A DNA stretch of 45,663 nucleotides, taken from positions 1-45,663 of the forward strand of contig NZ_JAKZKW010000027.1 of assembly GCF_022808695.1 (NCBI RefSeq), given 5' to 3'. This stretch comes from Fundidesulfovibrio soli (GTDB taxonomy: Bacteria; Desulfobacterota; Desulfovibrionia; Desulfovibrionales; Desulfovibrionaceae). The position numbers and the translations under genes were made by a program. Shown here in pieces: positions 5,031 through 44,332 of this stretch. Within the stretch, counting starts at the first letter, position 1; every line of letters begins with the position of its first letter. Under the pieces are notes generated by a model that made no database searches, was not told where the DNA came from, and saw only the letters and a program-made list of their open reading frames with translations.

Positions 5031-5936
5031 CTATCTCAGGCGCTCCAGCGCCTGGGCAAGATGATCGATCCAGATGTCCGCCACGGGGCCCATCTCCCCC
5101 GTGCCCTTGAGCACGGGCGCGCAGGCCACGCCGTGGGCCTCCAGGGCGGTCTTCCAGGAATCCGGGCCGTCACCGGCCATGTCGTTGCGGGCGTGCTCCC
5201 CGGCCACGGCGAGCAGCGGCACGAGCCAGGCCTTCTTCAGGCCCGCCCGGGCGAGCTCCGCCAGCACGTCCTCCCGGGAGGGGGAGGCGTCCACGGTGCC
5301 CACGAAGGCGTTCCGGTCCTTGCGCCACAGGTAGTACTGCAAGGCCGGGTAGGAGGCGTTCGCGTTGTGGCGAGACCCGTGCCCCACCAGGACCACCGCC
5401 TCGCCCGGCTTGCGTTCGGCGGACACGGAGGCCAGCAGCGCGGCGGCGGCCCGCTCCATGTCCCGCGGGGAGGCCAGCAGAGGCTCGCCCACCTCCACCC
5501 GGGCGATGCCCTTGGGCATGCCGGAGAAGGCCAGGGCAGTCCTGCGCAGGGCCTCGAACTCCTCGCCGGGGATGGTCTGCAGGGACTGCACGGCCACGCG
5601 CCCGAAGCCCTCGTCGGCCATGCGGGCCAGGGCCAGGGCCGGGGAATCAAGTCGGACGCCCTTCTCTTTGGCCAGCTTGTTGCGGATGGTCACGGAGGTG
5701 TAGGCCCAGCGGACCTCCATGCCCGGGAAGCGCTCCCGGACCTTGGCTTCTATGTTGGCGTAGGCCGCGTCGGCCCCTTGGGCGCTGGTCCCGAAGGCCA
5801 CCAGCAGCAGGCCCGTCTTCCCCTCGTTTTTTGCTTCGCCGTGGGCCAGAGCCCCGGAAGCGGCAGACACGAGGCAGGCCAGAACAAGCAACGGGACGAG
5901 AATTCCACGCAAGGCGGGGGGGAAGGCGGAAGTCAT
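5031..5936 (-). CDS. cbiK: Exported sirohydrochlorin cobaltochelatase, CbiK(P) type
   Basis: Inserts Co2+ (or Fe2+) into sirohydrochlorin. The 301-residue product begins with a hydrophobic signal peptide (about 8-32, GILVPLLVLACLVSAASGAL), so it is the periplasmic form known from Desulfovibrio. The start is the ATG at 5934-5936; an upstream in-frame extension runs into the riboswitch and is not coding. Catalytic His186 (VGHGS) and His248 (AGEHARND) have the family's 62-residue spacing. The third metal ligand, normally Glu 30 residues after the first His, is Asp216 here. No His occurs between 33 and 185, so the haem-ligand His I recall from the D. vulgaris periplasmic enzyme is absent. It is the first gene after the riboswitch. 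Confidence 0.92.
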   Translation of the reverse strand: MTSAFPPALRGILVPLLVLACLVSAASGALAHGEAKNEGKTGLLLVAFGTSAQGADAAYANIEAKVRERFPGMEVRWAYTSVTIRNKLAKEKGVRLDSPALALARMADEGFGRVAVQSLQTIPGEEFEALRRTALAFSGMPKGIARVEVGEPLLASPRDMERAAAALLASVSAERKPGEAVVLVGHGSRHNANASYPALQYYLWRKDRNAFVGTVDASPSREDVLAELARAGLKKAWLVPLLAVAGEHARNDMAGDGPDSWKTALEAHGVACAPVLKGTGEMGPVADIWIDHLAQALERLR

Positions 5937-5974
5937 GAGCGCGCTCCATCGCTTTGCGGCTTGTTGGAAGGAAG

Positions 5975-6020
5975 AAGACCGGGCCGCTCCCCACCCGTTT
6001 CCGGCTGGAGAAGCGGCCCG
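5975..6020 (-). terminator. Possible expression-platform hairpin between riboswitch and cbiK
   Basis: GGGCCGCT (5981-5988) and AGCGGCCC (6012-6019) can pair. On the minus strand the hairpin is followed by a pyrimidine-rich GGTCTTCTTCC rather than a clean U-run. It could be the attenuator of the riboswitch or a translational control hairpin; function is inferred from position only. Confidence 0.4.
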
Positions 6021-6080
6021 TATTCGCCCTTCTGGGGTCCATGCACGGCAATAGCCCGTTGCCCTGCTGGAAGCATGGTA

Positions 6081-6240
6081 TGACGCACAGGCAGGTCTTC
6101 CGGCTCGTTCCGTCCGCCCCGGCCTTCCCGGGGGATTCCCCAGTGGCGCGCGAAGGGGCGGACACGCATGGAACTTACGGCGGCGGGACCGCTCCCGATT
6201 TGAACGGGATTCCCTATTCTCCCATTGCTGGGCACCTGTG
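6081..6240 (-). ncRNA. Cobalamin (B12) riboswitch
   Basis: The minus strand carries the class landmarks in order: GGTGCCC, a GGGAATAGGGAA-like block seen as GAATAGGGAATCCCG, AGCGGTCCCGCCGCCGTAA, GCGCCACTGGGG, and the B12-box region CCGGAAGACCTGCCTG. It ends about 145 bases before the cbiK start. Binding of adenosyl- or related cobalamin would be expected to turn off the cbiK-permease-ATPase-binding protein-cobI operon. Confidence 0.93.
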
Positions 6241-6406
6241 GGGCCTGCGCTATCCGGTCGGAGGGGGGTTGTCAATGAAGGCGACGGCCTTCCGGCGCAA
6301 GCGCAGAAAAGGGGCCTGTTGGTGGGCCTGCCCCTGCGCTCCGCGCGAGGCTGAGGGAGATTCATGCCGCCAGGGTTGAAGCAGTTCCGTGCAAGCTCAG
6401 GTGAGG

Positions 6407-6763: not shown

Positions 6764-7360
6764 CTACCTTCCCAGCAAGAATATCCCGTTGGTGGCCCGC
6801 AGGTTGGGCAGCCAGTTCAGGATCAGCCCCGTGCGCGCCGAAGGCTCCGTCTTCACGGCCACGGCCTCGATGACCGGGATGGAGTGGCGCACGCAGAAGC
6901 GCTTGAAGTCCACCAGGGTGATCACGCGGATGTTGGGGGTGTCGTTCCACTCGTAGGGCAGTTCCGGGGTCACGGGGGCGCGGCCCTGGAAGAACATCTG
7001 GCAGCGGCCGCGCCAGTGGGCGAAGTTGGGGAAGCTGACCACGGCCCTGCGGCCCACGCGCAGCATCTGGCGGATGAGCCCCAGGGGCTCGGCCACCTGC
7101 TGCAACGTCTGGGAGAGCACCACGAAGTCGAAGAAGTGGTCGGGGTAGTCCATGACCTCGCGGGTGATGTCGCCCTGGAGGATGGAGACCCCCCGTGCGA
7201 TGCCCTCGGCGGCCTTGGCCTCGTCCTGCTCCACGCCGTAGCCCTGCACGTTCTTGGCCTGGTGCAGGTATTCCAGCAGTTCGCCCTGGCCGCAGCCCAG
7301 GTCCAGCACGCGCGATTCCGGGGCGATCCAGGAGGCGATGAGGTCGAGATCGTAGCGCAT
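6764..7360 (-). CDS. metW: MetW, methionine biosynthesis methyltransferase-fold protein
   Basis: Small class I SAM-methyltransferase-fold protein (198 residues) that works with MetX in methionine synthesis. The SAM-binding motif is VLDLGCGQGELL (about 19-30); the MetW-specific stretch SFPNFAHWRGRCQMFFQGR (about 108-126) and PYEWNDTPNIR follow. The ATG at 7358-7360 comes immediately after the metX stop (TAGATG), so the two are coupled. In other bacteria MetW associates with MetX and is needed for full activity; whether it methylates anything is not established. A hairpin element 20 bases downstream probably ends the transcript. Confidence 0.94.
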   Translation of the reverse strand: MRYDLDLIASWIAPESRVLDLGCGQGELLEYLHQAKNVQGYGVEQDEAKAAEGIARGVSILQGDITREVMDYPDHFFDFVVLSQTLQQVAEPLGLIRQMLRVGRRAVVSFPNFAHWRGRCQMFFQGRAPVTPELPYEWNDTPNIRVITLVDFKRFCVRHSIPVIEAVAVKTEPSARTGLILNWLPNLRATNGIFLLGR

Positions 7361-8539
7361 CTAGAGAATCCCCCTGGCCATGTCGCGGCTGGTGCGCTCC
7401 AGGTGGCCGGAGATGAGCCCGGCCAGGCGGGGGCTGTCCAGCAGGAAGGCGTCGTGCCCCCAGTGGGCCTCGATTTCGCAGAAGCTCACGTCCTTTCCGG
7501 CGCGCTTGAGGGCCTGCACCAGCTCGCGGGACTGGTAGGTGGGGTAGAGCCAGTCCGAGCTGAAGGAGACCACCAGGAAGCGCACCTTGCCGCGCGAGAA
7601 GGCCTTGGTGAGCGAACCGCCGCCGTGGGTGGAGCCCAGGTCGAAGTAGTCGGCGGCGCGGGTGATGTAGAGGAAGGAATTGGCGTCGAAGCGCTCCACG
7701 AACTTGCGGCCCTGGTAGCGCAGGTAGGACTCCACCTGGAAGTCGGCGTCGAAGCTGAAGGAGAAGTCGGCCCTGTCCTGCAGGCCCCGGCCGAACTTGT
7801 GGCGCATGGCCTCGTCGGAGAGGTAGGTGATGTGGCCGATCATGCGCGCCACGGCCAGGCCGTGGGCGGGCTTGCAGCAGCTGTAGTAGCGGCCGCCGTT
7901 CCAGTCAGGGTCGGCCACGATGGCCTGGCGGGCCACCTCGTGGAAGGCGATCTGCAGGGCCGAGTGCCTGGGCGCGGTGGCCAGGGCGATGGCGGAGACC
8001 AGCCGGTCGGGGTAGCGCGCGGCCCACTCCAGCACCTGCATGCCGCCCATGGAGCCGCCCACGGCGGCCAGCAGGCGCTTGACGCCTAGATGGTCCAGCA
8101 GGGCTTTCTGGGCGCGGACCATGTCCCCGATGGTGAGCACCGGGAAGTCCGGCCCGTAGGGCTGGCCCGTGGCCGGGTCGATGCTGGCCGGGCCGGTGGA
8201 GCCCATGCAGCCGCCCAGGACGTTTGCGCAGATGACGAAATACTGGTCCGTGTCGATGCCCTTGCCCGGCCCGATCATCACTTCCCACCAGCCAGGCTTG
8301 GGGTCGGAGGCGCTGTAGACCCCGGCGGCGTGGCTGTCGCCCGTGAGGGCGTGGCAGACCAGCACGGCGTTGGAGCCGTCCGGGGCCAGGGTGCCGTAGG
8401 TCTCGTAGGCCAGGGTCACGGGGCCGATGACTGCGCCGCTCTCCAGGGGCATGGGTTCGTCCTGGGCGAAGGTGAAGAGGCGCTTCTCCACCAGTCCCAC
8501 GCCCTCGGCGTCGAGGTCGTGCTCGGCGTACTCGCTCAC
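7361..8539 (-). CDS. metX: Homoserine O-acyltransferase (MetX)
   Basis: Alpha/beta-hydrolase-fold enzyme that acylates homoserine, the entry step to methionine. The 393 residues match MetX length. Nucleophile elbow VGGSMGGMQVLEWA, catalytic Asp in SFSSDWLYP and catalytic His in EAHWGHDAFLLD are present, and the oxyanion region GDSHAAG and the GPGKGIDTDQYFVIC block are typical. The start is taken as GTG (8537-8539), overlapping the TGA of the kinase gene as GTGA; an in-frame ATG further upstream would extend deep into the kinase gene with a non-conserved Gly/Pro stretch. Acetyl- versus succinyl-donor preference cannot be read here. metW follows without a gap. Confidence 0.93.
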   Translation of the reverse strand: MSEYAEHDLDAEGVGLVEKRLFTFAQDEPMPLESGAVIGPVTLAYETYGTLAPDGSNAVLVCHALTGDSHAAGVYSASDPKPGWWEVMIGPGKGIDTDQYFVICANVLGGCMGSTGPASIDPATGQPYGPDFPVLTIGDMVRAQKALLDHLGVKRLLAAVGGSMGGMQVLEWAARYPDRLVSAIALATAPRHSALQIAFHEVARQAIVADPDWNGGRYYSCCKPAHGLAVARMIGHITYLSDEAMRHKFGRGLQDRADFSFSFDADFQVESYLRYQGRKFVERFDANSFLYITRAADYFDLGSTHGGGSLTKAFSRGKVRFLVVSFSSDWLYPTYQSRELVQALKRAGKDVSFCEIEAHWGHDAFLLDSPRLAGLISGHLERTSRDMARGIL

Positions 8540-10521
8540 CTGAAGCCGCCCTTGGGCTTGTGGAGATGGTCCATGGCCAGGGCCACCTGGACCTCCAGGC
8601 ACTCGAACAGGGGGGAGTGATCCGCGTCCGGCTGGGCGGAGAGCGCTTTCTCCAAGGCCATGGCCGCGGCCTCCACTCCCGTGGCGCAGACCACGGCCGC
8701 CATGCCCTTGAGCGTGTGGGCGGCGCGCGTGGCATCGGCGAATCTGCCGGTCTCCATGGCGGCGCGCAGCGCATCGGTGGTGGAACCGGAATTCTTGATG
8801 AACAGGGCCAACAGCTCCGGCAGGATGTCACCCATATTGGCGAAGCGTCTGGCCTGCTGCGCCGTGTCGAACGGCCCGCCCCCCTCAGACGCGGGGGCCG
8901 CTGCTTCCGCCTGGTCGCCCGGGGCTTTCCCCGCTTCGGCCGGGCAGGCCGACGAGACCGAACAGACCTCCAGGATGACGCGTTCGAAGTGCTCCAGGTC
9001 CAGGGGCTTGGCCAGATAGGCGTCCATGCCGGCCTTGAGGAAGCGCTCCTCGTCGCCGCGCATGGCGTGGGCCGTGACGGCCACAATGGGGATGCGCGGA
9101 TCGAACCGGGAGCCGTCGTGGCCACGGATGGCCGCGGTGGCCTCCACGCCATCCATCTCCGGCATGGAGATGTCCATGAGCACGATGTCGAAGACGTCGC
9201 GGGCCAGGGTGTCCAAGGCCGCCCGCCCGTTCTCTACCGCTGTGACCCTGTGCCCGCGCTGGATCAGGAACTTGGTGGTGAAGCGCCTGTTCACGGCGTT
9301 GTCCTCGGCCAGCAGGATGCGCAGGGACGCCTTGGAGCCGCCGCCCTTCCGCGCCTGCGGGGCCCTCGCGGCGCTGCTTGCCGCCCACTCGTCGGCAGAC
9401 GCCGGGCTCATGCCGACAGGGATGACGCAGGTGAACACCGCCCCGCCGCCCTCCGCGTTGCGGGCGGAGATGGTGCCGCCCACGGTTTCCAGCAGGCGCT
9501 TGCAAACGGTGAGGCCCAGGCCCGCGCCGGGGTGCCGCCAGCGGCCCAGAAGGGCCGCCCTCGCCGGGGCGTCCTGCAGCAGGGACAGGCCGTACTCGTC
9601 CAGGCCGATGCCCGTGTCCTCCACCTCCAGCACCAGCAGCCCCTGGGTTTCCATTCTGGCCCGCACTGCGACTTTTCCGGCCGAGGTGAACTTGACCGCG
9701 TTGTCCAGCAGGCAGGCCGCCACCTGGCGCAGCCGGGCCGGATCGGTCCGCAGGTGCGCCGGCACGTCCGGGTCGACCTCCAGCGACAGGACCAGCCCCT
9801 TGCGGCTGGCCGCGCGGGAGAACGCCTCCAGGACGCCCTCCAGGACCAGGCGGACGTCGAAGTCGGCGGAGGAGTGGGCATCGTTGCCTGTTTCCGTGTC
9901 GGTGTAGTCCAGCAGGTTGTCCATGACGAAGCGCAGGGAGGAGGCTGCCGACTCAAGATCATCCAGGATGTCCCGCTGGCCCAGGGTGGGCTCGCTGTCG
10001 ATCAGCAGGCGGACCATGCCGAGGATGGAGTTCAGGGGGGTGCGCATCTCCCTGCTGACGTTGACCAGGAAGCTGTTCCTGAATACGGCTGCGCGCCCGT
10101 GCTCCTCGCGTTCGCGAAGCAGCTCGGCGCGGCATTCCCCCTCGCCGGCCCCGGGAATCTCCATCAATGCCCACAAGAGGTGTCCCTGCTCCCCGGAGCC
10201 CAGCTGAACACAGCGCACGGCCACGGGGATCTCCCTGCCGGACGCGGTCCGCAACGACAACCTGCGGGTCGGAGACGCGTTGCCGGGCTCCTCCGGCCCG
10301 GGATTGTCCAGGCTGTAGAGGAAGGCCTCCAGGGGCGCGCCCGCCAGGCTGGCGGGGGAGAGGCCGGTCATTTCCCCCAGCCGCGGATTCACGCGGAGCA
10401 CGGCGCCGTCGCGGTCAGTTACTGCGAGGCCCACCGGTGCGTCCTCCCACTGTGGCCGGGGGTAGGAAATGTCCGGGCGGGTACTGTCAACGAAGCCGGA
10501 TTCGTGTGATTCGGGAGCCAT
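8536..10521 (-). CDS. Hybrid sensor kinase-like protein without the phospho-acceptor His (PAS-HisKA*-HATPase-REC-Hpt)
   Basis: Two-component protein of 661 residues: PAS-like domain (about 20-130), dimerisation domain, ATPase domain, receiver and C-terminal Hpt. The H-box reads NVSREMRTPLNSILG, with Arg157 (codon AGG, 10051-10053) where the phosphorylated His should be. The rest looks intact: N-box LLDNAVKFT (Asn274), G-boxes DTGIGL and GAGLGL, receiver Asp450 (LMDISMPEMDG), Hpt His602 (AAHTLKG). The protein cannot autophosphorylate in the usual way but could bind ATP, pair with another kinase or act as a phosphate sink through REC/Hpt. No membrane segment, so cytoplasmic. ATG 10519-10521 is chosen for the GAGG eight bases upstream. 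Its stop overlaps metX. Confidence 0.88.
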   Translation of the reverse strand: MAPESHESGFVDSTRPDISYPRPQWEDAPVGLAVTDRDGAVLRVNPRLGEMTGLSPASLAGAPLEAFLYSLDNPGPEEPGNASPTRRLSLRTASGREIPVAVRCVQLGSGEQGHLLWALMEIPGAGEGECRAELLREREEHGRAAVFRNSFLVNVSREMRTPLNSILGMVRLLIDSEPTLGQRDILDDLESAASSLRFVMDNLLDYTDTETGNDAHSSADFDVRLVLEGVLEAFSRAASRKGLVLSLEVDPDVPAHLRTDPARLRQVAACLLDNAVKFTSAGKVAVRARMETQGLLVLEVEDTGIGLDEYGLSLLQDAPARAALLGRWRHPGAGLGLTVCKRLLETVGGTISARNAEGGGAVFTCVIPVGMSPASADEWAASSAARAPQARKGGGSKASLRILLAEDNAVNRRFTTKFLIQRGHRVTAVENGRAALDTLARDVFDIVLMDISMPEMDGVEATAAIRGHDGSRFDPRIPIVAVTAHAMRGDEERFLKAGMDAYLAKPLDLEHFERVILEVCSVSSACPAEAGKAPGDQAEAAAPASEGGGPFDTAQQARRFANMGDILPELLALFIKNSGSTTDALRAAMETGRFADATRAAHTLKGMAAVVCATGVEAAAMALEKALSAQPDADHSPLFECLEVQVALAMDHLHKPKGGFR

Positions 10522-10660: not shown

Positions 10661-10772
10661 AGAAATTTTATTGCCTACTGGCGCGGTCGGCTTACAAGGC
10701 CGCAGAATCCCGGGGGGTGACTTCGCCCCGCTTTGGGGCTATCCACGGCTCATCCCACTCCCAGGAGCCGCC

Positions 10773-12434
10773 ATGCGCAGCAAACTCATGACCGGCGGGC
10801 TGGAGAAAGCCCCCCACCGCTCCCTGCTCCACGCCCTCGGACTGACCCGAGAGGAAATCGAACGCCCCCTGATCGGCATCGTCAACTCCGCCAACGAGGT
10901 GGTCCCCGGCCATCTGCACCTGGACACCATCGCCAACGCGGCCAAGGCCGGCGTCCGCATGGCGGGCGGCACGCCCATGGAATTCCCGGTGATCGGCGTC
11001 TGCGACGGCCTGGCCATGAACCACGCGGGCATGCGCTACTCGCTGCCCAGCCGCGAGATCATCGCCGACTCCATCGAAATCATGGCCACGGCGCACCCCT
11101 TCGACGCCCTGGTGATGATCCCCAACTGCGACAAGACCGTGCCCGCCATGCTCATGGCCATGCTGCGGCTGAACATCCCCTCGATCCTGATCTCGGGCGG
11201 CCCCATGCTGGCGGGCTCCTCGGCGGGCAACCCCGTTGACCTCATCAGCGTGTTCGAGGCCGTGGGCCGCGTGAAGCGCGGCGAGATGGACGAGGAGCAG
11301 CTCTGCGACCTGGAGATGAAGGCCTGCCCGGGCTGCGGCTCCTGCTCGGGCATGTTCACGGCCAACTCCATGAACTGCCTGTCGGAGTCCATCGGCCTGG
11401 CCCTGCCCGGCAACGGAACCATCCCGGCGGTGACGGCGGCGCGCGTGCGCCTGGCCAAGTACGCGGGCATGAAGGTCATGGAGCTGCTGGCCAAGGACAT
11501 CAAGCCCCGCGACATCGTGACCAAGGGCTCCGTGGCCAACGCCGTGACCATGGACATGGCCCTGGGCTGCTCCACCAACACGGTGCTGCACCTGCCCGCC
11601 ATCTTCGCCGAAGCCGGGCTGGACCTGACCCTGGACATCTTCGACGAGATCAGCGCGCGCACCCCCAACGTCTGCAAGCTCTCGCCCGCAGGCCACCACC
11701 ACATCGAGGACCTGCACCGCGCGGGCGGCATCCCCGCCGTGATGCAGGCCCTGGCCAAGCGCGGGCTCATCGACACCTCGCTCTTGACCGTCACCGGCAA
11801 GACCGTGGGCGAGAACCTGGCCGAGCTCAAGCCCGTCATCGCCGACGAGGACGTCATCCGCGACAAGACCCCCTACTCCGAGAAGGGCGGCATCGCCGTG
11901 CTGCGCGGCTCCTTGGCCCCGGAAGGCGCGGTTGTCAAGCAGTCCGCCGTGGCCCCGGAGATGATGCAGCGCACCCTCACGGCCCGCTGCTTCGACTCGG
12001 AGGAGACCGCCTACGCGGCCATCCTGGCCGGGGAGATCAAGCCCGACATGGCCATCGTCATCCGCTACGAAGGCCCCCAGGGCGGCCCCGGCATGCGGGA
12101 GATGCTCTCCCCCACGGCGGCCATCATGGGCATGGGCCTGGGCTCCGACGTGGCCCTGCTCACGGACGGGCGCTTCTCCGGCGGCACGCGCGGCCCCGCC
12201 ATCGGGCACATCTCGCCCGAGGCGGCCGAGGGCGGGCCCATCGGCCTGGTCAAGGACGGGGACAAGATCCAGATCGACATCCCGGCCCGCAAGCTGGAAT
12301 TGCTCGTCTCCGAAGAGGAGCTGGCGGCCCGCCGCGCGGTCTTCAAGCCCGTGGAGAAGCCCCTGCCCTCGGGCATGCTGCGCCGCTACGCCCGCTCGGT
12401 GAAGTCCGCAGCCTACGGCGCGGCCATGAAATAG
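10773..12434 (+). CDS. ilvD: Dihydroxy-acid dehydratase
   Basis: Fe-S dehydratase that makes 2-oxo acids for valine, leucine and isoleucine (and pantothenate) synthesis. It has 553 residues, full length. Cluster cysteines lie in [13 protein letters not shown] (about 117) and [17 protein letters not shown] (about 188); [16 protein letters not shown] is the C-terminal signature. The ATG at 10773 follows AGGAG by seven bases, and the product then begins [19 protein letters not shown] as in homologues; upstream in-frame codons are not conserved coding sequence. It is transcribed alone, divergent from the kinase-metXW operon, and ends at a bidirectional terminator. Confidence 0.97.
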
Positions 12435-12505: not shown

Positions 12506-12958
12506 CTACTGGCCGGGTTGCTGGCCGCCGCCCGCGGGCTGCTGGCCTTGCACGCCCTGGGGATGCATCTGGCCGGGAGTCCCCACGCCTGGGGAGCCGG
12601 GCGTCATTGAGCCCGAGCCTGAGCCCGACCCCATGCCCGAACCGGAGCCCATACCGGAGCCAGAGCCCATACCCGAACCGGAACCGGAGCCAGAGCCCAT
12701 ACCCGAACCGGAACCGGAGCCGGAGCCAGATCCCGAACCCATGCCCCCTCCGGAGCTTCCGCCTCCCATACCGCCTCCGCCGCCGGAGCCACCGCCACCA
12801 CCGGAGCCGCCTCCGCCACCACTGGATCCACCGCCACCACCGGAGCCGCCTCCGCCTCCGCCACCGCCGCCCATGCCCGCAAAGGCCAGGGAACTCACGA
12901 GCAACAGGGCGAGGCACACCGACACGATCTTCTTCACCCGCTGGGAAATCGTCGCCAT
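12506..12958 (-). CDS. Exported Gly/Ser-rich low-complexity protein
   Basis: Not a recognised family. The 150-residue product has a clear signal peptide (about 1-27: KRV-type basic start, then [17 protein letters not shown]) followed by almost pure Gly with Ser (about 28-75), a [13 protein letters not shown] repeat (about 75-118), and a Pro/Gln tail ending [13 protein letters not shown]. The strong ribosome site AAAGGAGGATACGG fixes the ATG at 12956-12958. Two perfect 30-bp direct repeats (12661-12720) encode part of the array, so length may vary between strains. Such sequences suggest a disordered, extracellular or matrix-associated protein, but no function can be assigned. Confidence 0.75.
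12661..12720. repeat. 30-bp tandem repeat inside the Gly/Ser-rich gene
   Basis: Two exact copies (12661-12690 and 12691-12720) starting CAGAGCCCATACCCG. They encode the GSGSGSGM-type array. Flanking sequence (12601-12660, 12721-12740) contains degenerate versions, indicating growth of the array by slippage. Confidence 0.85.
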
Positions 12959-13030
12959 GTTCCGTATCCTCCTTTGGGAGAGCCTCTCCCAACGCTGGTC
13001 ATCGTCCAAAAACAACGCGCCGGGCAGCGA

Positions 13031-39874: not shown

Positions 39875-42800
39875 ATGAACACCGTCACTTCGTTCTGGCG
39901 CAACCTCTCCATCACCTACAAGCTCGGGCTGGCCTTCGCCCTGCTGCTGGCCATGCTCACGCTCGTTGCGGCGGTGAGCTACTTCGCCCTGGCGTCCGTG
40001 CGCCACGCAGAGAACGTGATCCTGAACAGCGCCGAGATCAGGCAGCGGGTCTACGAGATGGACGCCGGGCTGGAAAAGGCCCGCCGCCTGCACCGCGACT
40101 TCTTCCTCAACTACCCCTCCGTGGGCTTCAGCAAGGCACACGAACTCTACTTCCAGCCCTCCATCCAGGCCATCGCCCGGGTGGTGGCCCTGAGCGACGA
40201 CCTCAAGCGGCTGGTCTCCAGCCCGGACGTCAGCGATGCGCTGCAACGCCGCAATGTGGAGATCAACCTTTATCTCTCCTCGGCCAAACGCTTCACCCAG
40301 ACCTTCCTGGAGCTCGTTGACCTGGTGACCATCCTGGCCGCGCCCGAGACCGGCCTGCAGGACCGGCTGGATGAGCAGATGGCCGTTCTGGCCCCGCTGG
40401 CCGACGCCAGCGAGGAGATGTCCCGGCTGTTCCTCAAGCAGCTGGCCCAGCAGAAGCAGTACCAGCTCACGAAGCAGCGCCCGGACATGCAGGCCGCGCT
40501 CAACGAGGGTTTCCTGCTGGGCAAGGCCGTGGCCGCCTCCAAGCATCTCAACGCCGACCAGAAGGCCCAGGCCCGCGAGATCCTGCGCAACGTCGCCTCC
40601 ATCGGCGAGGACATCGCCAACGTCGACTCGGCCATAGCCGGGAAGTTCAATGACTTCGCCCTGCAATCACAAGCCATCGACCCCATTTCCGAAGAGCTCA
40701 AGGCCCTGGTGACCTCCGAGGTCAACCGCACCAGGGCGCACATCGACGCGGTGAGCCGCTCCGCCACGGCCATCATAGCCGTCACCGCCCTGCTGGGCCT
40801 GGTCTGCACCCTGCTCATAGCCTGGCTGGTCAACGCCTCGGTCACCAGGAAGCTGGTTGCGCTCACGGATTCGGCCGCCTCGCTGCGCTCGGGCAACCTG
40901 GACGTCAGGGTGCCGGTGGATACCGGCGACGAGTTCGGCGAGCTGGCCGACACGTTCAACTCCATGGCGTCCGAGATGAGCGGCCTGGTGGGCGACCTGG
41001 AGACCAAGGTCAGCCAGCGCACCGGGGAGCTGGCCAAGGCCAAGGACGAGCTGGAGGAGGCTGTGCGCGGGCTGCGCGCCGCCAACTTGGCCGCCGAATC
41101 CGCCACGAGGATCAAGAGCGAGTTCCTGGCCAACATGAGCCATGAGATACGCACCCCCATGAACGCTATCCTGGGCTTCTCCAGCCTGGGTCTGGACAGC
41201 GACGATCCCACGCGCCTGCGGGACTACCTGAAGAAGATCAACTCCTCGGCCCGCTCCCTGCTGGCCATCGTCAACGACATCCTGGACTTCTCCAAGATCG
41301 AGGCTGGCAAGCTCAACATGGAGCTCGTGCCCTTCGCCCTGGACGACGTGCTGGCCGACGTGTCCAACGTGCTGGGCGCCCGCGCCGGAGAGCGCGGGAT
41401 CGAGCTCATCATGCGCAGGGAGCCGGACGTGCCCACCAACCTGCTGGGCGACCCGCTTCGCCTGGGCCAGGTGCTGCTCAACCTGGTGGGCAACGCGCTC
41501 AAGTTCACGGAGCAGGGCGAGGTCGAGATCCGCATCGCCCTGGATAGCCATCAGGACGGCAAGTCGGTGCTGCGCTTTTCCGTTCGGGATACGGGCGTGG
41601 GCATGACCCGTGTCCAGCTCGACAACCTGTTCAAGCCCTTCTCCCAGGCGGACGGCTCCATCACGCGCAAATACGGCGGCACAGGCCTGGGCCTGGCCAT
41701 CTGCAAGCGCCTAGTGGAATTCATGGGGGGCAAACTCTCGGTGGAATCCGAATATGGGTCGGGCAGCACCTTCACATTCACCGCCGCATTCGGAGTCGAG
41801 GAGAAGAAACGCCGCCGCGCCGCGCCCGACCAGTCCCTGCGCTCCCTGAAGGTGCTGGCCGTGGACGACAACGCCAACGCCCTGGCCCTGGTGTCCGAAT
41901 TCCTGCGCGGCTACGGGCTGCAGGTGAGCGCGGCCACCAACGCCCGGGACGCCCTGCGCATCCTGGAGCAGGCCGACCCCGCGGACCCCTTCTCCCTGGC
42001 GCTCATCGACCTGCTCATGCCCGACATGGACGGCCTGGAGCTGGCCCGGCGCATACGCGGCAGCCTGCGCATCCAGAAACAGCCCGCGCTGCTCATGCTC
42101 ACCGCCTACAGCCGCATGGGCCTCATGTCCGAGGCCTCCGGCTCCGGCGTGGACATGGTGCTGACCAAGCCCTTCACCCAGTCCAGCCTGTTCGATGCCG
42201 TGCTGAAAGTCCTGGGGCGCCCCGTCAGCCCAGATGGCGAGGGCTCGCCTGACACCCCGGCCCCCCCGGAAGGGGTGGACCTCACCCGGCTCGAAGATCT
42301 GCGCGGGGCCCGGGTGCTCGTGGTGGAGGACAACCCCCTCAACCAGCAGGTCTCCGTGGAATTGCTCCATCACGCCGGCGTTGTGACGGAAGTCGCTACC
42401 AACGGCTCCGAAGGGATCGCCAAGGCTCTGGCCCAGCCCTTCGACCTGGTGCTCATGGACATCCAGATGCCGGGAATGGACGGTTTCCAGGCCACGGCTG
42501 CCATCCGCGCCGTGGAGCGCCTCAAGAACCTGCCCATCGTGGCCATGACCGCCCACGCCATGACCGGCGACCGCCAGCGTTGCCTGGATGCGGGCATGGA
42601 CGACCATTTGGGCAAGCCCATCGACCCGTCTGAGCTGTTCGCCGCCCTGCTGCGCTGGATGCCGCGCCGAAACGGCCGCATGGGTGCGGCCTCCGACGCT
42701 CCGCCCCAGGGGCAGGACCAGCCCCCCGCGCCTCCGGCACTGCCTGACTCCCTGCCGGGAATCGACATGCAGACCGGCCTGGCGAGGGTCATGGGCAACT

Positions 42801-43345
42801 CGAAAACGTACCTGGAACTGCTCTCAGGCTTCGCGGCCCAGGCCCGCGCCTTCCCGGACAAACTCCGCCGGGCGCTCCGGGAAAGGCCGGACGAGCTGCC
42901 GGGACTGCTCCACGCCATGAAGGGCGTTGCCGCGAACATGGCTGCGAACGAGGTGCGCGAGGCCATCCAGCCTCTTGAGCACGCACTGAAGGAAGGCACC
43001 AACCGGGACCTGCAGCCGCTCATCGACCGCCTGCTGCATGCCCTCCAGACCGTGCTACAGGGGCTCGACGCCCTGCCCGGAGTCCGGCCCGCCACGGCTG
43101 CACCCGGCGGCCACGCGCGCACAGCGGCGGACAAGCTTGCGCTGGCCGCCCTGGCGCACGGCTTGCGCGCCCAGCTCCAGGCCCACGACATGGACGCGGC
43201 GGACACGCTGGCGCAGCTGCGGGCCGCCTCGGCCGGACTGCACGCCTCCCTGCTCGACGAACTGGAAGCCCGCCTCTCCCAACTGGACTACGAAACCGCC
43301 CTCGCGGTGTTGCAGGAACTGGAGACCGAACTCCAGTCCGATTGA
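39875..43345 (+). CDS. Membrane hybrid histidine kinase (HAMP-HisKA-HATPase-REC-REC-Hpt)
   Basis: 1156-residue sensor kinase. TM1 (about 16-38) and TM2 (about 299-321) enclose a 260-residue helical periplasmic region that could receive a liganded binding protein. Then HAMP (about 322-366), HisKA with His423 ([11 protein letters not shown]), HATPase (N-box [10 protein letters not shown] near 538), receiver 1 (Asp712), receiver 2 (Asp862) and Hpt His1013 ([11 protein letters not shown]). All phosphorelay residues are intact, and the layout (two receivers plus Hpt) resembles BarA/TorS-type kinases, TorS being one that works with a periplasmic binding protein. It starts six bases after the lipoprotein stop with a poor ribosome site, so it is probably coupled. 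Confidence 0.93.
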
Positions 43346-43354
43346 AGGCATCGT

Positions 43355-44332
43355 ATGGCAGCAGTCACCAACAGGCCCCGCGTGCTCGTCGTCGACGACA
43401 TGCCATTAAACATCAAGCTGCTGCGGGAGCTCCTCAAGAACAGCTACGCGGTGAGCTTCGCCACCGACGGGCACATGGCCCTGGCCCTTGCGGAATCCTC
43501 TCCGCCCGACCTGGTGCTGCTGGACATCTCCATGCCGGAGATGGACGGCTACGAGGTCTGCCGCAGGCTCAAGGCCAACCCGGCCACGCGCGCCATCCCC
43601 GTGGTGTTCCTCACCGCCCAGAGCGACGAGACCAACGAGCTGGAGGGCCTGAGCCTGGGGGCCATAGACTACATCACCAAGCCCTTCAGCCCGCCCATCG
43701 TGCTGGCCAGGGTCAAGAACCACATCGAGTTCGTCCGGGCCAAGAACCGCCTCAACGAGGCCTACACCCTGCTGGACCTCAAGAACCAGGAGCTCGACGA
43801 CAAGAACCGCGCCCTGGAGGTGCTCCTGCAGACCGACCGCCTGACCCGGCTGCACAACCGCCACAAGCTCGACGAGGCCTTCCAGGCCGAGGTGCTGCGG
43901 GCGAAGCGCTACGCCACCCAGTTCTCCGTCATCCTGCTGGATGTGGACTCCTTCAAGACCGTCAACGACACCTTCGGGCACCTGGTGGGCGACAGCGTGC
44001 TGGTGCAGGTGGCGGACACCCTCTCGGCCAACGTGCGCGAGATGGACATGGTGGGCCGCTGGGGCGGGGAGGAGTTCCTGCTGCTGTGCCCAGAAACCGG
44101 GCTGGAGACCGCTGCCGAGCTGGCATCCCGCCTGCGCTCGGTGCTGGCCTGCCAGCCCCTTCCCCCTGTGGAGCAGGTGACGGCCAGCTTCGGCGTGGCC
44201 GCCTACCACCCCGGGGACGACGTGGCCAGCTTGCTGCGCCGCGCTGACGACGCCCTCTACAGGGCCAAAGCATCAGGGCGGAACCGCGTGGAGATCGCCC
44301 CGCCGCCGGGGTTGACCTCTCCGGGGGAATGA
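43355..44332 (+). CDS. Response regulator diguanylate cyclase (REC-GGDEF, PleD/WspR-like)
   Basis: 325 residues: receiver (about 8-125, phospho-acceptor Asp57 in LLDISMPEMDGYEV, Lys in YITKPFS), a coiled linker (about 130-165) and a GGDEF domain (about 165-315). The active site is GGEEF (237-241), preceded by an RxxD inhibitory site (REMD). Phosphorylation from the adjacent kinase Hpt would be expected to turn on c-di-GMP synthesis. The ATG at 43355 is nine bases after the kinase stop. Confidence 0.94.
   Translation: MAAVTNRPRVLVVDDMPLNIKLLRELLKNSYAVSFATDGHMALALAESSPPDLVLLDISMPEMDGYEVCRRLKANPATRAIPVVFLTAQSDETNELEGLSLGAIDYITKPFSPPIVLARVKNHIEFVRAKNRLNEAYTLLDLKNQELDDKNRALEVLLQTDRLTRLHNRHKLDEAFQAEVLRAKRYATQFSVILLDVDSFKTVNDTFGHLVGDSVLVQVADTLSANVREMDMVGRWGGEEFLLLCPETGLETAAELASRLRSVLACQPLPPVEQVTASFGVAAYHPGDDVASLLRRADDALYRAKASGRNRVEIAPPPGLTSPGE

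Follow-up and report, generated by a model that had tools for sequence, protein, structure and literature searches.

Upstream of metX in Fundidesulfovibrio, a sensor kinase seems to be turning into a phosphate relay

The contig NZ_JAKZKW010000027.1 of Fundidesulfovibrio soli (45,663 nucleotides; the whole stretch analysed here, called the window) carries directly upstream of metX a gene whose product has the layout of a hybrid histidine kinase, with Arg157 in the place of the phospho-acceptor His. We think it fairly probable that this protein descends from a hybrid histidine kinase, has had its own kinase switched off and now works in phosphotransfer, as a relay fed in trans. At the same position in related species the kinase part appears to have been lost by several routes, with the Hpt module kept in every species examined, so this single locus seems to display a sensor kinase on its way to becoming a phosphate relay.

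Translation of the minus strand between 10521 and 8536 gave 661 open codons followed by a stop. It bore out what an earlier note on this DNA had read from the letters: an AGG codon for Arg157 within the H-box NVSREMRTPLN, the receiver Asp450 (codon at 9172-9174), the Hpt His602, and a stop that overlaps the metX start as GTGA. All four Pfam domains exceed their cut-offs (HisKA 44.0, HATPase_c 69.4, Response_reg 89.1 and Hpt 42.2 bits). The phospho-acceptor position could be scored in 107 of 109 homologous loci and is His in 105; the two with Arg (L002 and L033) are one Fundidesulfovibrio agrisoli gene retrieved twice. A narrower comparison with 52 other kinase cores, obtained from 59 loci by removing identical rows and rows containing stops, found His in all 52. 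Both sets were picked by similarity to these kinases, and some of the 109 loci partly via a Rec motif, which makes the conservation of Rec columns in that set partly a matter of construction.

The ATP-binding boxes had been described as kept. This holds for N274, D302 and the glycines G304, G306, G332, G334 and G336. It does not hold for the first Asn of the N-box, which is Cys270 here and Asn in 51 of the 52 other cores, nor for the Phe pair of the F-box, which is Gln316/Pro319 in the window protein and Arg/Pro in F. agrisoli, against Phe at each site in 52/52 others. These residues belong to the N, G1, F and G2 boxes. Compared with an active hybrid kinase, the protein lacks the H-box His in both species, and its CA boxes are incomplete, with the N-box partial, G1 and G2 present and the F-box gone. 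The two independent lesions, H157R and the loss of both F-box Phe residues, argue against autophosphorylation and make autokinase activity doubly unlikely. The protein is thus very probably kinase-dead, as the note had proposed.

The nearest orthologue, from F. agrisoli SG106 (G001), shares 80% protein identity and has Arg at the same site, encoded by CGG where the window species has the synonymous AGG. This second species with its other codon rules out a single-strain mutation or a sequencing error. Between the two species the ratio of nonsynonymous to synonymous rates (dN/dS) was 0.32 for the whole gene; by domain it was DHp 0.28, CA 0.22, Rec 0.10 and Hpt 0.43, with metX (0.11) and metW (0.05) as yardsticks. 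Over the DHp and CA core we counted 42.2 nonsynonymous differences in ~528 sites versus 54.8 synonymous ones in ~198 (Fisher p 4e-11). In the comparison of the two Arg species, purifying selection thus acts on the kinase core, and Rec is the most constrained domain. The dN/dS values and the Fisher test rule out a pseudogene, in agreement with the earlier view that the open frame did not look like one. Identity between the pair drops below that of the PAS region (71%) solely in residues 1-24 and in the linker 373-398, and in both species the start ATG (at 10521 in the window) has GAGG 8 nt upstream.

Our sample of the genus comprised seven genomes, of which six contain metX; G006, the remaining one, has a completeness of 66%. 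In all six metX-bearing genomes the gene immediately before metX, on its strand, is a homologue, and the proposed kinase-metX linkage is therefore conserved within the genus as far as examined. The homologues come in graded forms. G003 has a canonical hybrid kinase with an 850-codon open frame, an H-box His and a normal F-box (HisKA 75.9, HATPase 94, Rec 93 and Hpt 51 bits), and the window species (G000) and F. agrisoli have the Arg pseudokinase. In G005 the protein is 433 amino acids long and DHp is absent (no HisKA match); CA is decayed (HATPase 23 bits, below the 26.4 cut-off), since N274, D302, G306 and G334 are changed or missing, as are most residues of the F-box and lid. Rec (93 bits) and Hpt (53 bits) are intact. 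G004 and G002 have Hpt-only proteins of 159 and 121 amino acids (Hpt 54 and 60 bits). The lengths for G005, G004 and G002 depend on the start codons chosen. The note took a normal His in metX-adjoining orthologues as a sign of a recent single-strain mutation or error. F. agrisoli has Arg and G003 has His; G003, however, represents a different species and one stage in the range of forms, so its His is not evidence of such an error.

The stop of the upstream gene overlaps the metX start in G000 and G001, the only two genomes with the exact GTGA; it lies 3-4 nt before that start in G003, G004 and G005, and 13 nt before it in G002. On the far side ilvD lies divergently in 6/6 genomes, in G003 past one extra open frame. 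That frame (L146, G003:C28), of 1119 codons between ilvD and the kinase, reads by eye as CheB-CheR-PAS-like and suggests an insertion or module gain.

The part shared by all six loci is the Hpt module. Over its 72-codon core, the first and the second codon position each vary less than the third in 15/15 genome pairs. Twenty-six columns are invariant in 6/6 genomes, including HTLKGM, VVCA and the His region, and the Hpt His is retained in all six within the signature HTLKGM[AS][AS]VVCA. A profile built from the six sequences recovered each of its members at <=7e-47, as its construction implies; of the other Hpts in 119 genomes the best scored 8e-19. VVCA occurred in none of 23 other Hpt domains with a recognisable motif (from 24 loci, the best one per genome, among the matches listed). 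Because of this profile gap and the absence of VVCA from those 23, the metX-linked Hpt forms by its sequence a subfamily of its own that, within the searches made, occurs in this genus alone and at this position alone.

A tree of rpoB, gyrA, metX and metW placed the Arg pair (G000 and G001) outermost, then G002, then G003, G004 and G005; rpoB and gyrA by themselves gave a similar topology with bootstrap values of 73 and 71. The four Rec domains form a single clade (99/96) in which G003 pairs with G005 (98/90; the bootstrap is rough), a pairing compatible with the species tree, and the best match of the G005 CA remnant among 55 cores is G003 (score 253 versus 205 for the next). The Hpt gene tree, with six rows, was too weak and was not used. 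Grouping both Hpt-only species together was rejected by the approximately unbiased (AU) test (p-AU 0.025), so that the Hpt-only form probably arose twice; three other groupings tested stay unrejected (p-AU 0.157, 0.118 and 0.077). On the simplest history the ancestor would have had a complete hybrid kinase, which was then reduced three or four times separately. In the kinase-core tree the stem of the Arg pair is 2.44 changes per column long; the median end branch measures 0.75. From this long stem, followed by constraint, we infer a change of function rather than simple decay. As a separate observation, G002 has elsewhere an 854-codon kinase frame (L004, G002:C5) that is the best match to the Arg core after G001 and G003 (91/222 identical), and whose Rec falls outside the metX-linked Rec clade.

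We propose that evolution here is turning an ancestral hybrid kinase, probably more than once, into a phosphotransfer protein that receives its phosphate in trans. An Hpt without a kinase must be charged by the receiver of another protein, and charging in trans would apply to all forms except perhaps that of G003. The phosphoryl group would come from a separate, unlinked hybrid kinase, entering on Rec where one is present and, in the Hpt-only species, passing from the Rec of that kinase onto Hpt; the Hpt His would then hand it to an unlinked response regulator. The inert DHp-CA of the Arg species may be retained as a folded module for dimerisation, docking or sensing. Their attached Rec, being the most constrained domain, is probably in use, either as the entry point or as a drain. 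Co-transcription and probably coupled translation with metX-metW would set the amount of the protein; we claim no effect on MetX itself.

The fuller version of this proposal, in which a hybrid kinase becomes step by step, and more than once, a free-standing Hpt with its phosphate source in trans and the dead kinase of the Arg species gains a new, selected role, is put forward tentatively and may well prove wrong. If it is true, the stages would be point inactivation (Arg and the F-box), DHp deletion with decay of CA, and loss of kinase and receiver, with the surface around the relay His unchanged. To our knowledge the steps from sensor kinase to relay are rarely visible, RcsD, Spo0B and ChpT being end products. 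Here the canonical, inactivated (two species), truncated and Hpt-only (two species) forms occur in close relatives at one syntenic locus, where experiments can ask when the phosphate supply shifts to a kinase in trans and why a dead core stays selected. The locus also raises the question of why an Hpt shares an operon with metX and metW.

Several observations weigh against this interpretation. The locus is known from six genomes only. The inner forks of the species tree are supported at 80/81 and 87/91, the order of G003, G004 and G005 is left unresolved, and the tree of metX and metW alone has G002 outermost instead of the Arg pair (support 63); for these reasons it is uncertain whether there were three or four independent losses. 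Common descent of the histidine kinase (HK) cores of the Arg pair and G003 is neither established nor rejected (AU p 0.415), and the best tree places the G002 kinase L004 nearer to the Arg pair, at 68/91. In view of its extra CheB-CheR-PAS-like frame, G003 might have been rebuilt by recombination, and the canonical state need not be ancestral. Finally, the Hpt value of 0.43 is the highest dN/dS of the named domains in the Arg pair, which one would not naively expect of the part that is kept.

Three other explanations were considered. A His-less DHp-CA could act as a phosphatase on the attached receiver, draining a regulator through Hpt and Rec to inorganic phosphate. E158 and T161 of the H-box, taken here as the HisKA phosphatase motif, are intact (E and T in 52/52 other cores), and the retention of N274, G1 and G2 and the selection on CA fit such an activity. 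However, DHp is gone in G005 and Rec as well in G002 and G004, with Hpt persisting in all; a phosphatase is therefore not the function of the locus as a whole, and we regard this explanation as unlikely. The same facts bear on the earlier suggestion of a phosphate sink or decoy partner, which is possible but not the best reading, because Hpt alone survives in two species and points to phosphotransfer as the function that was kept.

It is quite unlikely, too, that a kinase is dying in most lineages and that its 3' end stays because it serves as the ribosome entry for metX. The spacing given above, an overlap or 3-4 nt in five of six genomes, speaks for this, and the losses do proceed from the 5' end. 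Yet both stand-alone Hpts are open and intact with full Pfam scores, the constraint on Hpt acts at the protein level in every pair with its invariant columns in all six genomes, and the core of the Arg pair has the low dN/dS and the Fisher result reported above. Very doubtful in our opinion is a role as a heterodimer partner that modulates an active kinase, as ChrS does with HrrS. The dimerisation domain is retained and constrained, and ChrS (PMC9491836) and DivL (PMC4211667) offer precedents. In the window genome, however, no close active paralogue was seen (the next match by score is 36% identical, with 20 of 156 candidates scored), and the idea is inapplicable to G002 and G004. We thus favour a relay fed in trans over all three.

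To follow the linkage beyond the genus, 149 genomes of the family (the genus included, taken from a larger group) were examined. Forty-two outside the genus have a metX match, and ~6 kb upstream of metX was compared in 34 of them, the 8 weakest matches being left out. A related kinase or Hpt stands immediately before metX, on its strand, in none of these 34 loci. In G072 there is a weak match 5.3-6.0 kb upstream of metX. The hybrid kinase beside metX in G011 (L152, G011:C82) is an ordinary one, with the H-box His (MSHEIRTP), an Hpt and HTLKGSSGVIGA; it starts ~204 nt from metX and reads in the opposite direction. Its Rec (L254) falls outside the metX-linked Rec clade and the kinase is therefore apparently unrelated to the metX-linked gene of the genus; it does mean that a kinase can adjoin metX elsewhere too. 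A methionine or S-adenosylmethionine (SAM) riboswitch before the kinase was not found at the Rfam gathering threshold in the window or in L141-L146, where nothing matched but the cobalamin riboswitch of the window and the copies of it that L141 and L142 carry. That the window protein tunes methionine synthesis, as the note had suggested, is no more than possible; the lack of the linkage in the 34 loci from outside the genus and the restriction of the exact GTGA to two genomes weigh against it, although 3-4 nt separate stop and start in three of the remaining four. We know of no phosphorelay that has MetX as its output.

Table 1. Positions of the kinase-derived gene, its domains and neighbouring features in the window.
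Feature	Position	Strand	Basis and remarks
Pseudo-histidine hybrid kinase, 661 aa, PAS-DHp-CA-Rec-Hpt	8536..10521	-	Translation, Pfam
PAS region, residues 25-125	10147..10449	-	71% identity between both Arg species
DHp/HisKA, residues 148-212	9886..10080	-	Pfam HisKA, 44.0 bits
AGG codon, Arg157, site of the phospho-acceptor His	10051..10053	-	Translation, alignments; CGG in F. agrisoli
CA/HATPase_c, residues 260-369	9415..9744	-	Pfam; N274, G1 and G2 kept; N270 replaced by Cys
F-box position, residues 316-319, without either Phe	9565..9576	-	Core alignment
Receiver, residues 402-513 (E406, D407, D450, T483, K505)	8983..9318	-	Pfam, dN/dS 0.10
Hpt module, residues 550-661; His602 at 8716-8718 in HTLKGMAAVVCA	8539..8874	-	Pfam, six-genome Hpt alignment
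Stop/start overlap GTGA, kinase TGA with metX GTG	8536..8539	-	Sequence
metX, homoserine O-acyltransferase	7361..8539	-	NF001209, 552 bits (cut-off 331)
metW	6764..7360	-	TIGR02081, above cut-off
ilvD, divergent neighbour	10773..12434	+	Same flank in the 6 genus genomes with metX
Cobalamin riboswitch	6073-6254	-	Rfam, 102.7 bits; precedes the CbiK-like gene
CbiK-like gene	~5031-5999		182.5 bits, below the model cut-off of 400

Other features of the window were noted in passing. Directly before ilvD and on its strand, a stretch at 10715-10772 is conserved in 6/6 genus genomes and runs GG.TGAC, then GGCTAT or GCTAT, then a Shine-Dalgarno sequence. Within it CTTTGGGGCTATCC stands at 10731-10744 in the window and is altered in G002, G003 and G004. 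The stretch has no Rfam match at the gathering threshold and could be an ilvD leader or operator. The CbiK-like gene is followed by genes for a corrinoid/iron-type ABC transporter, and a cobI/cbiL-type methyltransferase lies at 1647-2351. At 39875-44332 on the plus strand, a 1156-codon frame is followed by a 325-amino-acid frame that starts like a response regulator (VLVVDDMPLNIKLLRELL); judged by eye only, these may be a two-component pair, ~30 kb from the kinase. A 169-codon frame at 12506-13015 on the minus strand ends in a strongly glycine-serine-rich repeat.

Among known systems, RcsD is the nearest in logic. According to PMC7418988 and PMC3762810, its HK part is inactive and its C-terminal Hpt, charged by the hybrid kinase RcsC, passes phosphate to RcsB; judged by sequence, the window protein would resemble it as a kinase-derived protein with an inactive HK and an intact Hpt. 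RcsD is membrane-bound, with an ABL domain and control by IgaA (PMC7418988); in the window protein, unlike RcsD, the receiver is intact. The window protein does not belong to the RcsD family (NCBIfam NF007907), reaching 68.8 bits against a cut-off of 634 over the kinase core only (residues 137-371). DivL, the nearest precedent for the altered H-box, has Tyr there (Ala in one species), binds ATP weakly and acts neither as a kinase nor as a phosphatase (PMC4211667). Both proteins have a non-phosphorylatable H-box residue in more than one species, two in our case, and a CA that is present but impaired. They differ in the residue, Tyr or Ala as opposed to Arg, and DivL is a PAS-HK protein without Rec-Hpt that, in that source, senses DivK~P. 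The DivL chain 4q20 is among 45 PDB sequence matches, over the kinase core only (E 1.6e-20) and weaker than several other kinases.

Spo0B and ChpT transfer phosphate through a DHp His. They are listed with PhyT/PhyP as phosphotransferases thought to be kinase-derived in PMC5898713, where PhyT likewise uses its own DHp His; the window protein is without that His and keeps a separate Hpt. ChrS is described in PMC9491836 as a pseudokinase made by mutation that can act through another kinase with which it heterodimerises. PMC9981736 deals with the ways in which the Rec domains of hybrid kinases differ from those of regulators. The order HK-Rec-Hpt is common to the window protein and unorthodox kinases of the TorS/BarA/ArcB type. 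The best NCBIfam matches are in fact TorS (280.4 bits, cut-off 676.5) and BarA (275.8, cut-off 890), both far below their cut-offs, and unlike these kinases the window protein lacks the phospho-acceptor His. In the open-licence PMC literature, the titles and abstract openings searched do not describe the locus, no paper was found on a pseudokinase combined with an Hpt, and the available portions of the reviews PMC12189002 and PMC12471899 hold nothing on the locus. Kinase-derived relays as such are already known; what sets this case apart is a graded series at a single locus.

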